From positions 434,001 through 498,000 of the forward strand of contig NZ_CP016379.1 in NCBI RefSeq assembly GCF_003991135.1: 64,000 bases of DNA, read 5' to 3'. The notes beneath the pieces are model-generated. The model saw only the letters and a program-made list of their open reading frames with translations. It had not been told where the DNA came from and did no database searches. Within the stretch, counting starts at the first letter, position 1; each line of letters starts with the position of its first letter. Source of the stretch: Anoxybacter fermentans. GTDB taxonomy: Bacteria; Bacillota; Halanaerobiia; DY22613. Shown here one piece after another: positions 24,632-34,931 of the stretch. Made by a program: the position numbers and the translations under genes.

Positions 24632-25504
24632 ATGAATTCAAGGCCAAAATTTGTAATCGTTACAGGAATGTCAGGTGCAGGTAAAACACAGGCTATTCGG
24701 ATATTTGAAGATTTTGGGTATTTTTGTATTGACAATCTGCCATCTGCTCTCATCTCTAAATTTGTCGAACTCTGTATTTATAATCAGCAAATTAATAATG
24801 TAGCTCTGGTAATGGATATTCGAGGTGGAGAATTTTTTGAGGATCTTATAGAAGAGTTAGCCAATTTAGATGATCTGGGTGTTAATTATGAAATTCTTTT
24901 CCTGGAAGCTACTACCGATGTTTTGGTCCGCCGTTATAAAGAGACCAGGCGACGACATCCACTAGCGGCCCAGTGTGGTGGGCGAATTATTGATGCAATT
25001 GAAAAGGAAAGGACTATGTTGGAAGAACTGCGGGGTATGGCCAACAAGATCATTGATACTTCAGATATTTCCACTAAAGATTTGAGAGAAGAGATTCTGG
25101 CTAACTTCGGGGTTAATGCGATAAATGAGTTCATTACTATTACTGCAATGTCTTTTGGCTTTAAATACGGAATTCCTTTAGATGCAGATCTAGTCATTGA
25201 TGTTCGTTTTTTACCAAATCCCTACTATGTACCCTCACTTAAGAAATTAACAGGCCTACAAACTGAAGTACAGGAATATGTACTCAAATGGCCTATAGCT
25301 GAGAAATTTATGGATAAATTTCTGGATTTGATTAAATTTTTGATTCCCCATTATATTAAAGAGGGTAAAACCCATTTGACCATAGCCATTGGTTGTACTG
25401 GCGGGAAACATCGTTCTGTTACTTTAACAGAGAAGTTAGCGGAATTTTTAGAAAGCTTAGATTATAAAGTAATTGTAGATCATCGTGATATTGAAAAAAA
25501 ATAA
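24632..25504 (+). CDS. rapZ: RNase adapter/nucleotide-binding protein RapZ (YvcJ)
   Basis: 290 residues. N-terminal P-loop GMSGAGKT, Walker-B-like region, ETRRRHPLA, and the C-terminal conserved [12 protein letters not shown] with DHRDIEKK. In E. coli RapZ controls glmS through small RNAs; in Bacillus YvcJ is a GTPase linked to competence. Gene order rapZ-yvcK-whiA is the standard Firmicute cluster. ATG 24632 is chosen; the upstream TTG (24617) lies within the leader hairpin. Confidence 0.93.
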
Positions 25505-29239: not shown

Positions 29240-29246
29240 ATTGTTT

Positions 29247-29327
29247 AAAAGGCGAAGGTAAATTTGACCTTCGCCTTTTAAAGTTATTATCCCTTTCGGT
29301 GTTTTGGGCCGTAAAGGGATTTTTTTC
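29247..29327 (+). terminator. Two consecutive terminator hairpins after rpoN
   Basis: First: AAAAGGCGAAGGT (29247) with ACCTTCGCCTTTT (29267), no long U run. Second: ATCCCTTT (29289) with AAAGGGAT (29313), followed by a T run. Confidence 0.75.
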
Positions 29328-29415: not shown

Positions 29416-29442
29416 ACAGGAATATGGCAACAAACGTCGAAT
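29416..29442 (+). promoter_or_regulatory. Sigma-H-type promoter of the LTD/metallo-beta-lactamase gene
   Basis: ACAGGAATA (29416-29424), 11-bp spacer, GTCGAAT (29436-29442). This fits the sigma-H consensus RNAGGAWWW-N11-12-RNNGAAT at every specified position. Confidence 0.6.
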
Positions 29443-29574
29443 TATAACTATACCACTTATTAAGGAAAAAAGTGGAATTTAAGAAAGAAGGGGGGTTTTG
29501 GAGAATTTAATATTAGGCGGATGTAGGGATTAAATTGTAGGAGGACTAACAAATAAAAAATAGGAGGGATTTAA

Positions 29575-31044
29575 ATGAAAAGAATGAGACTGACCTGGCT
29601 GGCTATAATGTTGATGGTTTTAGGATTGGTAATGACAGGATGTTTTAGTCTAGAGGAAAAGCAAAGTTTAAATAGGGATATTGAGAAAATTGTTACGCTG
29701 GCTTCAAATACTGTAGTAATATCAGAAGTATATTATGATACTCCTGGTACTGATAGCAAAGAAGAATACATTGAACTTTACAACATGAGTTCTTCAGCTA
29801 TTGATTTGAGCAATTGGACTCTCACTGATAATTATTCAACATATACTTTACCTGGTGGAACAGTTATTCAGAGTCAATCTACACTGATTATTGCTAAAGA
29901 TAGCAATGGATTTAATTCTTTATTTGGATTTAATCCGGACATTTCCGGTTTATCTCTGGCTTTAAGCAATTCAGGAGATCAGTTGATTTTAAAGGACAGT
30001 AGTGGTAATGCAGTAGACTATGTTGCCTGGGAAGGTTATGTGACTGGTTGGAACATTTATGCTAAGACCGGTAACTCTATTGAGCGGAACCCTGCAGATG
30101 TTGATACTGATACTGAATCTGACTGGGTGAGTAATGTTGCACCAACTCCTGGAACAGTAAATGGCGGTAGCAGTGGTAGCAGTGGTAGCAATACTGGTGG
30201 AGATACTGGTGGTTCTTCTGGTGGTTCTACCGGTACTGGTGAAAACCCAGCGCCAGGAGTTTTAAAAGTTCACTTCATTGATGTTGGTCAGGGAGATGCA
30301 ATCTTAATTCAGGCTCCTACTGGTGAAGCTATGATGATCGATGCTGGTAGCTGGGAGAGCGAAATTGAAAACAAGGTTATAAGTTATCTGACTAATCTGG
30401 GTCTTGATCACATTGATGTTACTGTTGCTACTCATCCACATTCTGACCATATTGGTAGTCTTGATGCAGTTATCAATAACTGGCCAGTATATAAGGCTTA
30501 TGATAGCGGTTTAGTTTATACTTCTCAAAGCTATGATGATTATATGAACGCTATTGAAACTAACAATGTACCACTTTACCTGGCACGGAGAGGAGATAGT
30601 TTCTATTTAAGTCCTGACGTATATGTTGAAATTTTAAGTCCAACTGATGCTATTGTAAACAATCCACAATATACTAATGACGTATCAGTTGTACTTCGTC
30701 TAACTTATGGAAATACCAGCTTTATCTTTACTGGTGATGCTGGTCAGAATATTGAGACTGAGATTATGGCAGAAGGTTATAATGTTGATGCAGATGTGTT
30801 AAAAGTTGGTCACCATGGTAGCTATACCGCTACAGCTCCGGAATTTGTTGATGCTGTAACTCCAACCGTTGGTGCGGTAATCATGTGCGGTGAAAATAAT
30901 CCTTATGGACATCCACATCAAGAAACTTTAGATACATTGAATAGCAGAAATATTACAATTTATCGTACTGACCTGGATGGAGCTTTAAATGGAGATATTG
31001 TCATGACATCTGATGGAAATACAATTACAGTAACAACTTATTAA
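29575..31044 (+). CDS. Secreted lipoprotein: lamin-tail domain plus ComEC-like metallo-beta-lactamase domain
   Basis: 489 residues. Lipoprotein signal with lipobox VMTGC at about residue 23. A lamin-tail domain (about 47-185: ISEVYYDTPGTDSKEEYIELYN, IDLSNWTL) is followed by a Gly/Ser linker and an MBL domain (about 227-489: VHFIDVGQGDAILIQ, THPHSDHIGSLDAV, FTGDAG, VGHHGS, HPHQETL). The metal ligands HxHxDH are intact. The MBL domain resembles the ComEC C-terminal nuclease, but no ComEC membrane channel is attached. An extracellular, membrane-tethered nuclease is inferred. Promoter is sigma-H-like; DUF3006 follows. Confidence 0.85.
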   Translation: MKRMRLTWLAIMLMVLGLVMTGCFSLEEKQSLNRDIEKIVTLASNTVVISEVYYDTPGTDSKEEYIELYNMSSSAIDLSNWTLTDNYSTYTLPGGTVIQSQSTLIIAKDSNGFNSLFGFNPDISGLSLALSNSGDQLILKDSSGNAVDYVAWEGYVTGWNIYAKTGNSIERNPADVDTDTESDWVSNVAPTPGTVNGGSSGSSGSNTGGDTGGSSGGSTGTGENPAPGVLKVHFIDVGQGDAILIQAPTGEAMMIDAGSWESEIENKVISYLTNLGLDHIDVTVATHPHSDHIGSLDAVINNWPVYKAYDSGLVYTSQSYDDYMNAIETNNVPLYLARRGDSFYLSPDVYVEILSPTDAIVNNPQYTNDVSVVLRLTYGNTSFIFTGDAGQNIETEIMAEGYNVDADVLKVGHHGSYTATAPEFVDAVTPTVGAVIMCGENNPYGHPHQETLDTLNSRNITIYRTDLDGALNGDIVMTSDGNTITVTTY

Positions 31045-31119
31045 TATACTAAAAAAGGACAAAACAGATGTTTCAGTGGAAATATACCAGTAAATTCAAC
31101 TATAGTGGGAGGGATTTTT

Positions 31120-31365
31120 TTGCGGATTAGAGCGGTCGTTGACCAGATTGAAGCAGGAAAAGCATTACTTCTCATTTCATCAAATGAGAGAGGTAAGATT
31201 ATCTGGCCTGTGAAGCATTTACCAGAAGAGATTAAAGAGGGAGATATTGTCTATATCAATATCGAAATTGACCATGAAGAGACCAAAAAGATTAAAGAAA
31301 AGGCCCAAGATCGACTTGCTAGACTACTAAAACGTACCCAGGAAATGGAGAAGAAAAAAGATTAG
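31120..31365 (+). CDS. DUF3006 family protein
   Basis: 81 residues: RIRAVVDQIEAGKALLLIS, WPVKHLPEEIKEGDIVYINIEID, then a charged coiled tail (EETKKIKEKAQDRLARLLKR). DUF3006 proteins are commonly next to ComEC-like MBL proteins; the function is unknown. Cytoplasmic (no signal). The TTG at 31120 is preferred because GGGAGGG lies just ahead; the ATG-like frame extension begins at 31105 on a GTG. Confidence 0.8.
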   Translation: MRIRAVVDQIEAGKALLLISSNERGKIIWPVKHLPEEIKEGDIVYINIEIDHEETKKIKEKAQDRLARLLKRTQEMEKKKD

Positions 31366-31391
31366 GCTTCCCTCTTTGAGGGAAGCCTTTT
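31365..31391 (+). terminator. Terminator overlapping the DUF3006 stop codon
   Basis: GGCTTCCCTC (31365-31374), TTT loop, GAGGGAAGCC (31378-31387), then TTTT. The last base of the TAG stop is the first base of the stem. Confidence 0.85.
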
Positions 31392-31430
31392 GGTAGATAT
31401 AAAAAATATAATATAGTAAGAAAAATTCAG

Positions 31431-31457
31431 ACAGGAATATGGAAATATATGTCAAAT
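31431..31457 (+). promoter_or_regulatory. Sigma-H-type promoter of the LTD/phospholipase-D gene
   Basis: ACAGGAATA (31431-31439), 11-bp spacer, GTCAAAT (31451-31457); one mismatch to RNNGAAT. The 12 bases ACAGGAATATGG are identical to those upstream of the LTD/MBL gene. About 250 bp of AT-rich leader separates it from the start codon. Confidence 0.55.
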
Positions 31458-31708
31458 AGTTATATTAATATTTCAGATAGCTAACAGTAAATAAGCCAGG
31501 ATTATATGAAATTAATCATATTTGCTAATATATAGTAAAATTTAACAAGAATTAAATAGGAAATTGTATGGAAAATGCTTAATTATAAAGAGAAATTTTA
31601 TGGTAAAGGGGGAGATATCAAAGATATAAAAATTATAATTAGGTAAGGGGAAAAGGTAAGGAGAAGTTTAAGGGATTTAAAAAAATTTTAAATTAAGGGG
31701 TGAAAAAG

Positions 31709-34700
31709 ATGTTAGCTTCAAAAAGAGTCTCTATTCTGGTATTAATGATTAGTTTGGTGTGGGTTTTTATTGTCTCTGGACAATATATACAGGCGGCGAA
31801 TATTGGTTCAGTTGTGATCAATGAAGTAGCCTGGGTGGGGACAACATATAGCACCTATGATGAATGGATTGAGTTATATAACACTACAAACTCAGATATA
31901 GATTTATCAGGTTGGACTTTAAATGCTGTAGATGGGACTCCAAGTATAAATTTATCAGGAATTATCCCAGCTAAAGGATATTTTCTTCTGGAAAGAACAG
32001 ATGATAATTCTGTTCCAGGTATATCTGCTGATCTGATATATACCGGGAGTTTAGGAAATACTGGAGAGACTCTTGAGTTAAGAGATGCGTCAGGGACATT
32101 GATAGACAGTGTTGATGCCTGGTATGCAGGAGATAATGATACTAAAGCTACTATGGAAAGAACTGATCCCCTGGTAAGCGGTACTGATTCATCTAACTGG
32201 AACACATCAACTGTTGGGTATGATGGAGGCTATGGTACCCCGAAAGCATTAAATTCCAATACCAGCTCTTCTGGTAGTTCTGGAGGAAGTATAGGTGGTG
32301 GTACTTCTGATTTATGGTATGATGTCTATTTTTCTGATAACCTCAATACTGTAATGCCTGATTATGGGCCAAAAAATATGGCTAATGCTCTGGTAAATGC
32401 CATTAATAGTGCCACTACTTCTATTGATTTTGCTATTTACGGAATGAGAGAAACAGAAGAGATACTGGCTGCTTTAATAGATGCTGTAAATCGCGGTGTT
32501 CAGGTCCGCGGTGTAGTCGATTCAGATTCTTCAGGTTATTATTACTATAAGGATACACAGAAATTAATTGATTCATTGCCAGCAGGTGCAGTAATTGCTG
32601 ACAATGATGATAGAATTATGCACAACAAGTTCTTTATTTTCGATGATAGTTCTGTCTGGACAGGTTCTACTAACATCTCAGATACAGGTATTAACGCCGA
32701 ATATAATTCTAACTGGTCGATACTTATCAGACATACCGATTTGGCCCTTGCCTATAAACAAGAATTTGAAGAAATGTACTCCGGAAAGTTCCATGATGCC
32801 AAAACTGATAATACCCAACATATTTTTCCGCCATTAGAAGATGGATCTATCATAGAATGTTATTTCTCACCAACGGATGATGCCACCCATAATGCCATTA
32901 TTCGTGCTATTAATGCTGCTCAAAGTACATTATACATTAAAATTTTCTATCTGACTGATCAGGAAATTGCTGATGCGATTATTGCTGCATATAATCGTGG
33001 AGTTGATGTCAAAGTTATTATAGATGCATCGGGAGCTGCTAATGAGTTCAGTAAACATGAACAACTCCGAAATGTAGGTATTCCTGTTAAAGTAGAAAAT
33101 TGGGGCGGAAAAGAACATATGAAAGCTCTGGTGGCTGATGGGTATATAGTTATAATTGGATCACAGAATTGGACGGGTTCTGGAAATACTGAGAATGATG
33201 AAAATACCTTATACATTGAAAATCAGCCATTAGCTGCTGCATTTACTGATTACTTTAATCTGCACTGGAATTGGATTCCTGATACATGGTTAGCAGGTAA
33301 TCCAGGTGCAGAATCACCAAATTCTGTAGGTTCATTGTCAGATTTTATTGACAATGATCATGATGGACTGACTGATGAAGGGGCACCAGAGAGCATAAAT
33401 ACAGTTGAAACCGGGCCAGGTGCGATAAATGTTTACTTTAACAAAGGTGCGTTAACAAGATATGCAACAACCAATAACCTGGCAAATCATCATGTTAATT
33501 TAGAGGATCGTTTGATAGAAAGAATTAATAACGCAACTACATCTATTGATATGGCAATTTATGAAATTAATTTGCCCCGAGTTGTTGATGCTCTTATAAA
33601 GAAAGCACAGGCAGGTGTGAATATAAGATTAATTGTCGATGCAAAACAACCATCAGATGCTACTTATGAAGAACGTTATCAAATTATGAGGCTTTATCTA
33701 GAAAAAATGGCACGTGGTGGAGATGGTATAATTGGTACTTCTGATGATATAATCATCTTCTCTGATTCTCCAATTTTTGCAGTAGAAGATAGTATTTTAA
33801 GAGGGCAATATGGACTTCCTTCTACTCCGGATGGAATTAATTATGTCACAGTAACTGTTGCAGGAAATCAAGTTTCCGGTTACCTTTTTGTAGATGCGGA
33901 ACAAAAATCTGATGGAACATATTATTCTCCTTCCGATCAGATGCACAATAAGTTTGTAATTTTTGACAACACCTGGGTATGGACAGGAAGTTGGAACTTT
34001 ACCGAAACCGGATTATATGGTTCAGAAGAAAATAGACTTGCTGGTATTCTTGGTGGGAATACTCAACATGTGGTAGAAATTAACTCAGTTGAATTGGCTG
34101 ATATTTTCAAGAGGGAATTTGATGAAATGTGGGGCAGCAGTACTATGCAACCAGATCCTCAGGTATCTAACTTCCATTCCAGAAAGGTTGATAATACTGC
34201 CCATGTAGTTGATGTAGGTGGACGCATAGTAGAAGTCTATTTCTCTCCAGGAGATGATGCAATAGGTCATATAACCAATTATGTACGGAATAATGCTGAT
34301 TTTAATGCTTATTTTACCATTTTTGCATGGTCTAACCAGACGTTATTAGATGAATTAAAATATTTATGGGAAGGTTCAAAAGAAGATTTGATTGGAACCC
34401 TTACCGGTTTTGATGTCAAAGGTGTTTTTGATTCATCATACTGGAATAGCTGGTGGTCGGCATCAGTAGATATGACAGGACGCACAGCTTCATATGAAAG
34501 TCTAGATAATCCAAATACTCGTTGGGCTAACCCGGCACCAGTTTATAAGGACGGAGAGGATAGAAAACTACACAGTAAGACTATGTTAATCGATGCTGAT
34601 ACAAACAGTGATCCAGTAGTTATTGTTGGTTCGGCCAATTGGAGTGCTAACGGAAATGACGTAAATGATGAAAATATTTTGATCATCCATGATGCAAATA

Positions 34701-34774
34701 TCGTCAACCAGTTCTTACAGGAATTCTACGCTAGATACTATATGGCTGGAGGAAGAATTCCAATGGGACAATAA
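31709..34774 (+). CDS. Secreted lamin-tail protein with four phospholipase-D HKD motifs
   Basis: About 1021 residues. Signal peptide ending near QYIQAA; lamin-tail domain (about 35-185: VINEVAWVGTTYSTYDEWIELYN); first PLD enzyme with motifs MHNKFFIFDDSSVWTGSTN (about 308) and EHMKALVADGYIVIIGSQNW (about 470); a calcium-loop-like DNDHDGLTDEG (about 550); second PLD enzyme with MHNKFVIFDNTWVWTGSWNF (about 749) and LHSKTMLIDA to VGSANWS (about 955). Two HKD motifs normally make one active site, so this is a tandem of two enzymes. Secreted phospholipase or nuclease activity is inferred from the family. GTG 31700 is an alternative start. Confidence 0.85.
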   Translation: MLASKRVSILVLMISLVWVFIVSGQYIQAANIGSVVINEVAWVGTTYSTYDEWIELYNTTNSDIDLSGWTLNAVDGTPSINLSGIIPAKGYFLLERTDDNSVPGISADLIYTGSLGNTGETLELRDASGTLIDSVDAWYAGDNDTKATMERTDPLVSGTDSSNWNTSTVGYDGGYGTPKALNSNTSSSGSSGGSIGGGTSDLWYDVYFSDNLNTVMPDYGPKNMANALVNAINSATTSIDFAIYGMRETEEILAALIDAVNRGVQVRGVVDSDSSGYYYYKDTQKLIDSLPAGAVIADNDDRIMHNKFFIFDDSSVWTGSTNISDTGINAEYNSNWSILIRHTDLALAYKQEFEEMYSGKFHDAKTDNTQHIFPPLEDGSIIECYFSPTDDATHNAIIRAINAAQSTLYIKIFYLTDQEIADAIIAAYNRGVDVKVIIDASGAANEFSKHEQLRNVGIPVKVENWGGKEHMKALVADGYIVIIGSQNWTGSGNTENDENTLYIENQPLAAAFTDYFNLHWNWIPDTWLAGNPGAESPNSVGSLSDFIDNDHDGLTDEGAPESINTVETGPGAINVYFNKGALTRYATTNNLANHHVNLEDRLIERINNATTSIDMAIYEINLPRVVDALIKKAQAGVNIRLIVDAKQPSDATYEERYQIMRLYLEKMARGGDGIIGTSDDIIIFSDSPIFAVEDSILRGQYGLPSTPDGINYVTVTVAGNQVSGYLFVDAEQKSDGTYYSPSDQMHNKFVIFDNTWVWTGSWNFTETGLYGSEENRLAGILGGNTQHVVEINSVELADIFKREFDEMWGSSTMQPDPQVSNFHSRKVDNTAHVVDVGGRIVEVYFSPGDDAIGHITNYVRNNADFNAYFTIFAWSNQTLLDELKYLWEGSKEDLIGTLTGFDVKGVFDSSYWNSWWSASVDMTGRTASYESLDNPNTRWANPAPVYKDGEDRKLHSKTMLIDADTNSDPVVIVGSANWSANGNDVNDENILIIHDANIVNQFLQEFYARYYMAGGRIPMGQ

Positions 34775-34787
34775 ACTAATTACCCTT

Positions 34788-34822
34788 GGCTGTTGACATT
34801 TTGCATGTCAACAGCCTTTTTT
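34788..34822 (+). terminator. Terminator after the LTD/PLD gene
   Basis: GGCTGTTGACA (34788-34798) and TGTCAACAGCC (34806-34816) followed by TTTTTT. The stem has the same sequence as the one at 10589. Confidence 0.9.
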
Positions 34823-34931
34823 AATGAAAAATTATCTGGGAAAAATTTTTTTAGAATTTTTTTCTCTGGAGCAGGAATTATTCACATTATGTAGAATAGA
34901 CTGAATAGAAAAAAGTTTGTTTTTTTCTTCT

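Follow-up and report, generated by a model that had tools for sequence, protein, structure and literature searches.

A predicted ComEC-type surface DNase and a DUF3006 protein are encoded by a gene pair conserved in bacteria and haloarchaea

Introduction

Three adjacent genes on the same strand in Anoxybacter fermentans raise the question of whether neighbours with similar domains and similar promoter words necessarily work together. A first-pass annotation of the window (64,000 nucleotides, positions 434,001 to 498,000 of contig NZ_CP016379.1, with coordinates below counted from its first letter) recognized a lipoprotein with a lamin-tail domain (LTD) and a ComEC-like MBL domain, a DUF3006 protein, and a second LTD protein with four PLD modules, and proposed that they form one coordinated system. 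Open reading frames and Pfam place all three genes and their domains where they had been described. The functional unit that we favor, with some reserve, is smaller, namely an operon of LTD-MBL and DUF3006 that would supply a surface DNase and a cytoplasmic partner, with the LTD-PLD gene as a separate neighbor.

Results and Discussion

Genes and domains at the locus

The features of the locus, all on the plus strand, are as follows.

29244..29282, plus strand: terminator-like hairpin after rpoN, with a 16-pair stem, forming the upstream border
29416..29442, plus strand: P1, sigma-H-like promoter, exact AGGAWWW-N11-RNNGAAT, 133 bp before the LTD-MBL start
29575..31044, plus strand: lipoprotein LTD-MBL, with a lipobox, an N-terminal LTD (residues 43-153), a Gly/Ser linker and a ComEC-type MBL domain (residues 230-485)
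31120..31365, plus strand: DUF3006 protein (Pfam), with no signal peptide seen and a predicted small beta-barrel and C-terminal helix
31364..31388, plus strand: terminator-like hairpin at the DUF3006/LTD-PLD boundary, -19.9 kcal/mol, z=-4.4
31431..31457, plus strand: P2, sigma-H-like site with one mismatch, GTCAAAT against the consensus RNNGAAT
31700..34774, plus strand: LTD-PLD, secreted LTD protein with four PLD/HKD modules (Pfam, NCBIfam and motif reading)
34788..34816, plus strand: terminator-like hairpin after LTD-PLD, from a hairpin scan
34871..34897, plus strand: third exact sigma-H-like site, just past LTD-PLD and upstream of cggR-gapA-pgk, outside the pair

The LTD-MBL protein is 489 amino acids long, carries the lipobox-like sequence MTGC at residues 20-23, and matches Pfam LTD (E=4.4e-23) and Lactamase_B (E=7.4e-18). 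Lipobox, LTD and MBL therefore lie in a single chain, as in the MBL-LTD lipoproteins of haloarchaea. Against the NCBIfam model ComEC_Rec2 (TIGR00361) the protein scores 137 bits (E=7.1e-40), below the cut-off of 190 bits, with the MBL part alone aligning, and it is therefore best described as ComEC-like rather than ComEC. For the DUF3006 gene (Pfam E=2.4e-15), the TTG at 31120 is a more likely start than the GTG at 31105 chosen by the ORF finder, because at that GTG GTGGGAGGG overlaps the ribosome-binding site and because the homolog in the nearest relative, genome G001, starts at about the equivalent place. In LTD-PLD, Pfam recognizes an LTD (E=5.1e-15) and four stretches of PLDc_2 (E=7.4e-85). 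The HKD motif is present four times, at residues 308, 473, 749 and 958, and is intact each time.

Sigma-H-type sites and transcription units

The word ACAGGAATATGG occurs exactly at 29416 and at 31431, followed 8 bp later by GTCGAAT and GTCAAAT, respectively. These words had been taken as sigma-H promoters of both LTD genes; judged against the pattern RNAGGAWWW-N11/12-RNNGAAT, P1 fits exactly and P2 departs at one position, so that the reading holds strictly for the first gene. Under a Markov-1 model, the first intergenic region would hold an exact site by chance with a probability of 0.008, and the second with one of 0.023. We did not accept the 12-mer common to both intergenic regions as proof of co-regulation, its chance being 0.13 under the same model, which is weak alone. 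A ACAGGAATATGT word at 25270 was also set aside, as it lies inside a coding region.

Across the genome (3.56 Mb), the exact pattern is found 199 times compared with 33 for a reversed control, indicating that the motif class is real. An excess is present across most genomes of the class, being almost nine-fold in the nearest relative and weak in some others. The genome also encodes two SigH-type sigma factors (G000:C1:3516254-3516844 and 2408039-2408632, at 359 and 216 bits), one of which scores above the family cut-off, the second being SigH-like. With a six-fold enriched motif, two such factors and SpoVS among the downstream genes, the promoter logic of the first-pass annotation gains support, and sigma-H-type sites in this genome are credible; at the locus itself, sigma-H would be the factor used. 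We sampled 71 of the 199 sites, at 68 loci. Fifty-nine lie outside long ORFs and 48 are within 350 bp before an ORF start. Besides SpoVS, the products of the downstream genes include regulatory and sensory proteins (LacI- and CggR-type sugar regulators, a chemotaxis-type response regulator and a receptor), transport proteins, a type II/IV secretion ATPase, an M23 peptidase, an Asp23 protein and the product of an ispH-S1 gene. Because the 199 sites precede genes of many kinds, a common sigma-H-like site says little on joint function, and in this genome it is no evidence for it.

Conservation of the sites could be followed for P1, since the ortholog in the nearest relative has an exact, corresponding site 150 bp upstream; the two MBL genes of that genome have exact sites 150 and 94 bp upstream. 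P2 has no ortholog gene for comparison. In other families, 17 MBL genes were examined and all lack an exact site upstream; control of this type is therefore lineage-specific, so that a sigma-H-type promoter would drive the operon in this family only. In A. fermentans itself the second MBL gene has no exact site upstream, and exact sites are also absent from the 12 kb examined around this gene and its DUF3006 neighbor and from the 10 kb examined around comEC. The third exact site, at 34871-34897, suggests growth-phase control of the glycolysis genes that follow it; the equivalent place in the nearest relative is degenerate.

The hairpin at 31364-31388 separates DUF3006 from LTD-PLD. The scan calls it on the minus strand, and its plus-strand tail is a short T run, TTTTGG; on this sequence, plus-strand termination is likely. 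LTD-PLD is thus probably a separate transcription unit, outside the MBL-DUF3006 pair.

Distribution and origin of LTD-PLD

In the nearest relative, the gene order is rapZ-yvcK-whiA-rpoN, an MBL gene with three LTDs, DUF3006, one other gene, and cggR-gapA-pgk. The MBL-DUF3006 pair is therefore syntenic between rpoN and cggR, and LTD-PLD is absent from the locus. When LTD was sought in all 59 genomes of the class, PLD modules were found only on the LTD protein of the window. Full-length relatives with an LTD and four PLD modules, at 57-59% identity, come from two metagenome-assembled genomes (MAGs) labeled "Acidobacteria", and in both they adjoin genes resembling pyruvate:ferredoxin oxidoreductase. 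An LTD-MBL query against the two MAGs, which are small and possibly incomplete, gave LTD matches only and no MBL. Judging from this pattern of sequence matches, LTD-PLD was likely acquired by horizontal transfer.

The PLD modules are closer to Nuc and NucT than to phospholipases, both among solved structures and in NCBIfam, the best solved-structure match being Nuc (1byr, E=2e-16). The four intact motifs conform to the pattern HxKxxxxD...GSxN and mark LTD-PLD as a putative nuclease of the PLD superfamily. Nuc, NucT and mitochondrial cardiolipin hydrolase, the best solved-structure matches, have one HKD per chain, whereas LTD-PLD has four together with an LTD.

These observations bear on the proposal that LTD-MBL, DUF3006 and LTD-PLD make up one sigma-H-controlled system that degrades or imports external DNA or lipids. 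The genes are adjacent, on the same strand and preceded by similar promoter words, and with Nuc and NucT as the nearest nucleases of the PLD modules both enzymes may act on DNA. However, a terminator-like hairpin stands before the PLD gene, that gene was found in a single one of the 59 class genomes, the two MAGs that carry full-length relatives have no detected MBL partner, and sigma-H-like sites are common in the genome. A coordinated three-gene system is consequently not borne out, and we consider it improbable. Co-occurrence in relatives, which the proposal had predicted for all three genes, was found for MBL with DUF3006 and fails for the PLD gene. Under the reading we favor, LTD-PLD would be a separately acquired and separately transcribed secreted enzyme and a mere neighbor of the operon. 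A PLD match beside DUF3006 in another family (L161, L165) was considered as support for a three-gene arrangement and rejected, as its length and sequence point to an ordinary protein of the cardiolipin-synthase-like kind.

ComEC likeness of the MBL domain

The MBL domain of the window aligns over its full length with the solved beta-lactamase domain of Moorella glycerini ComEC (9ic4, E=1.5e-41) and matches the full ComEC structure 30bt across its whole length. In that ComEC, H598, D602, H603 and D700 are required for DNA cutting, and the residues studied for this activity also include H725 and S728 (PMC12455585). Counterparts of all six are conserved in the window protein, where the motifs HPHSDH, GD, HHGS and GHP align with 9ic4 and 30bt; ComEC D600 is replaced by histidine, giving the canonical MBL motif HxHxDH instead of HxDxDH. 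Unlike ComEC, with which it shares the MBL fold and catalytic residues (PMC12455585, 9ic4), the window protein has neither an OB fold nor a transmembrane channel and has an LTD instead. Homology to the ComEC nuclease and conservation of the ligands support the external-DNA role that had been suggested for this protein, which is probably a surface DNase. The lipoprotein would be anchored at the outer membrane face, where the MBL domain, an equivalent of the ComEC nuclease domain without the channel, would cut external DNA through two metal ions. Secreted proteins with an MBL domain of this type carry the annotation "ComEC/Rec2 family competence protein" despite having no channel.

The LTD would help the enzyme grip DNA, probably so that it can function at high salt. 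In sister MBL proteins the C-terminal accessory domain is either an LTD or an HhH, at the same place. The same alternation is reported for secreted DNases of halophiles of the DNaseI type, in which the HhH tail confers salt resistance and the LTD has been proposed as its analogue (PMC4486849). In these halotolerant enzymes, of which the Thioalkalivibrio DNase is an example (PMC4486849), LTD and duplicate HhH tails are exchangeable as they are here, although their catalytic domain is DNaseI-like and that of the window protein is MBL. The exchange thus occurs on a second, unrelated nuclease fold, which supports repeated gain of a DNA-holding tail by salt-exposed DNases. Shewanella ExeM is likewise an extracellular nuclease, for which a lamin tail domain is mentioned (PMC6085458); the likeness is by description only.

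The first-pass annotation had treated the LTD as a companion of secreted nucleases. As a marker it proved unreliable here, since 6 of the 8 non-MBL LTD matches examined in the class form the outer part of putative diguanylate cyclase membrane proteins (three confirmed by Pfam, the others read by eye). Since membrane signaling proteins, too, have the LTD as their outer part, its presence need not point to DNA.

The MBL-DUF3006 pair

In the window, DUF3006 lies directly downstream of the ComEC-type MBL gene on the same strand. DUF3006 is present in 42 of the 59 class genomes, and of the 30 DUF3006 loci examined in the class, 18 have an MBL gene as neighbor, one of these being divergent. All 16 genomes with an LTD-MBL fusion also have DUF3006, for which the chance is 0.0015 given 42/59, with shared ancestry ignored. 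The A. fermentans genome contains a second pair, MBL-HhH with DUF3006. Beyond the class, the two genes are adjacent on five of six plasmids examined (from haloarchaea, Priestia and Geobacillus), with DUF3006 downstream and an annotated gap of 2-26 bp on plasmids of Natronosalvus, Halococcus, Priestia, Geobacillus and Natronorubrum; no adjacent DUF3006 was found at the Monoglobus MBL homolog. Natronosalvus and Natronorubrum reproduce the order of the window, lipobox-LTD-MBL and then DUF3006, when their MBL genes are translated from an earlier start than annotated, the LTD being assigned by Pfam in Natronosalvus and by sequence reading in Natronorubrum. MBL-DUF3006 is thus a widely conserved pair in bacteria and haloarchaea. 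Three other genomes of the class have both MBL-LTD and DUF3006, but in unlinked positions.

The haloarchaeal ComA-type proteins (Halobacterium NRC-1 ComA and Hlac_1867; PMC5118699, PMC3929857) are likewise lipoproteins with a ComEC-like MBL and an LTD, and in the haloarchaeal homologs examined DUF3006 adjoins them as it does in the window. Their domain order varies, whereas the window protein has the LTD first. They have been linked to DNA metabolism and biofilm, the tie to external DNA and biofilm resting on homology and abundance (PMC5118699, PMC3929857); Hlac_1867 is more abundant in biofilms (PMC5118699), and the gene deleted in one haloarchaeal study has a thermonuclease domain in place of the MBL (PMC3929857). 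LTD-MBL is ordinary in kind, and it is DUF3006 that is the undocumented partner in the literature searched.

ComEC-type MBL domains also resemble the phosphorylcholine esterase Pce, and the substrate may therefore be something other than DNA. A relationship of the MBL domain to Pce/CbpE can be detected, and the ComEC domain has Pce as its nearest homolog in structure (PMC12455585), so that the enzyme could instead act on an envelope phosphodiester (teichoic acid, phosphorylcholine), with the LTD as a wall or membrane anchor. However, the match to ComEC is far stronger than that to Pce/CbpE (E 1e-41 compared with 1e-6), DNA-binding HhH replaces the LTD in sister proteins, and the pair is also found in haloarchaea, which to our knowledge have no teichoic acids. 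We give this alternative little credence. Similarly doubtful is an accessory role in natural transformation, in which the protein would supply the ComEC nuclease during uptake or assist it. In favor of such a role are the close homology to that nuclease, the ComEA-like HhH of some members and a sigma-H-like site that precedes a type II/IV secretion ATPase gene. Against it, the ComEC of this genome carries its own MBL domain, the 10-kb region examined around comEC has no exact sigma-H-like site, and members occur on plasmids and in haloarchaea.

A possible role for DUF3006

DUF3006 has no convincing sequence relative in the PDB, and no mention of it was found in the literature searched. The predicted structure, of good confidence, is a small barrel that carries a long helix at its C terminus. 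Its nearest fold match is the N-terminal domain of Chs5 of the yeast exomer, with weaker matches to EF-P/eIF5A and cold-shock barrels, and the model suggests a protein- or nucleic-acid-binding barrel. Lacking a signal peptide, the protein would stay inside the cell and act on the unexported enzyme or its synthesis. We infer a cytoplasmic partner of the enzyme, most likely an inhibitor or chaperone, and this is the weakest step of the reading that we favor. The secreted nuclease NucA of Bacillus subtilis has a small cytoplasmic inhibitor, Nin. The likeness to NucA-Nin, an exported nuclease beside a small protein without a signal peptide, is one of arrangement only and implies no homology. We regard it as a speculative and rather unlikely extension that DUF3006 is generally a cytoplasmic self-protection inhibitor of widespread secreted ComEC-type nucleases, in bacteria and haloarchaea and on chromosomes and plasmids, with the LTD/HhH tail as a DNA grip for salt tolerance. 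Nonetheless, a family without an assigned function is thereby given a specific partner and a role that can be tested.

A second genomic context for DUF3006 is possible. In another family (L195, L196 and L198) the gene immediately downstream of it is cardiolipin-synthase-like, and no MBL gene accompanies it.

Several variations in LTD architecture were also seen. In the counterpart of LTD-MBL in the nearest relative (L052:7812-10190), a tandem array of three LTDs precedes the MBL domain. An N-terminal, probably extracellular LTD is combined with PAS and GGDEF in L170:1402-2889, L171:19-1926 (minus strand) and L191:1-2073 (minus strand); L173, L178 and L193 also encode LTD membrane proteins with PAS/GGDEF, the sequence of L178 reaching only its start, and one LTD-GGDEF membrane protein has an HD domain as well. 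If the LTD binds DNA, these membrane proteins could sense external DNA.
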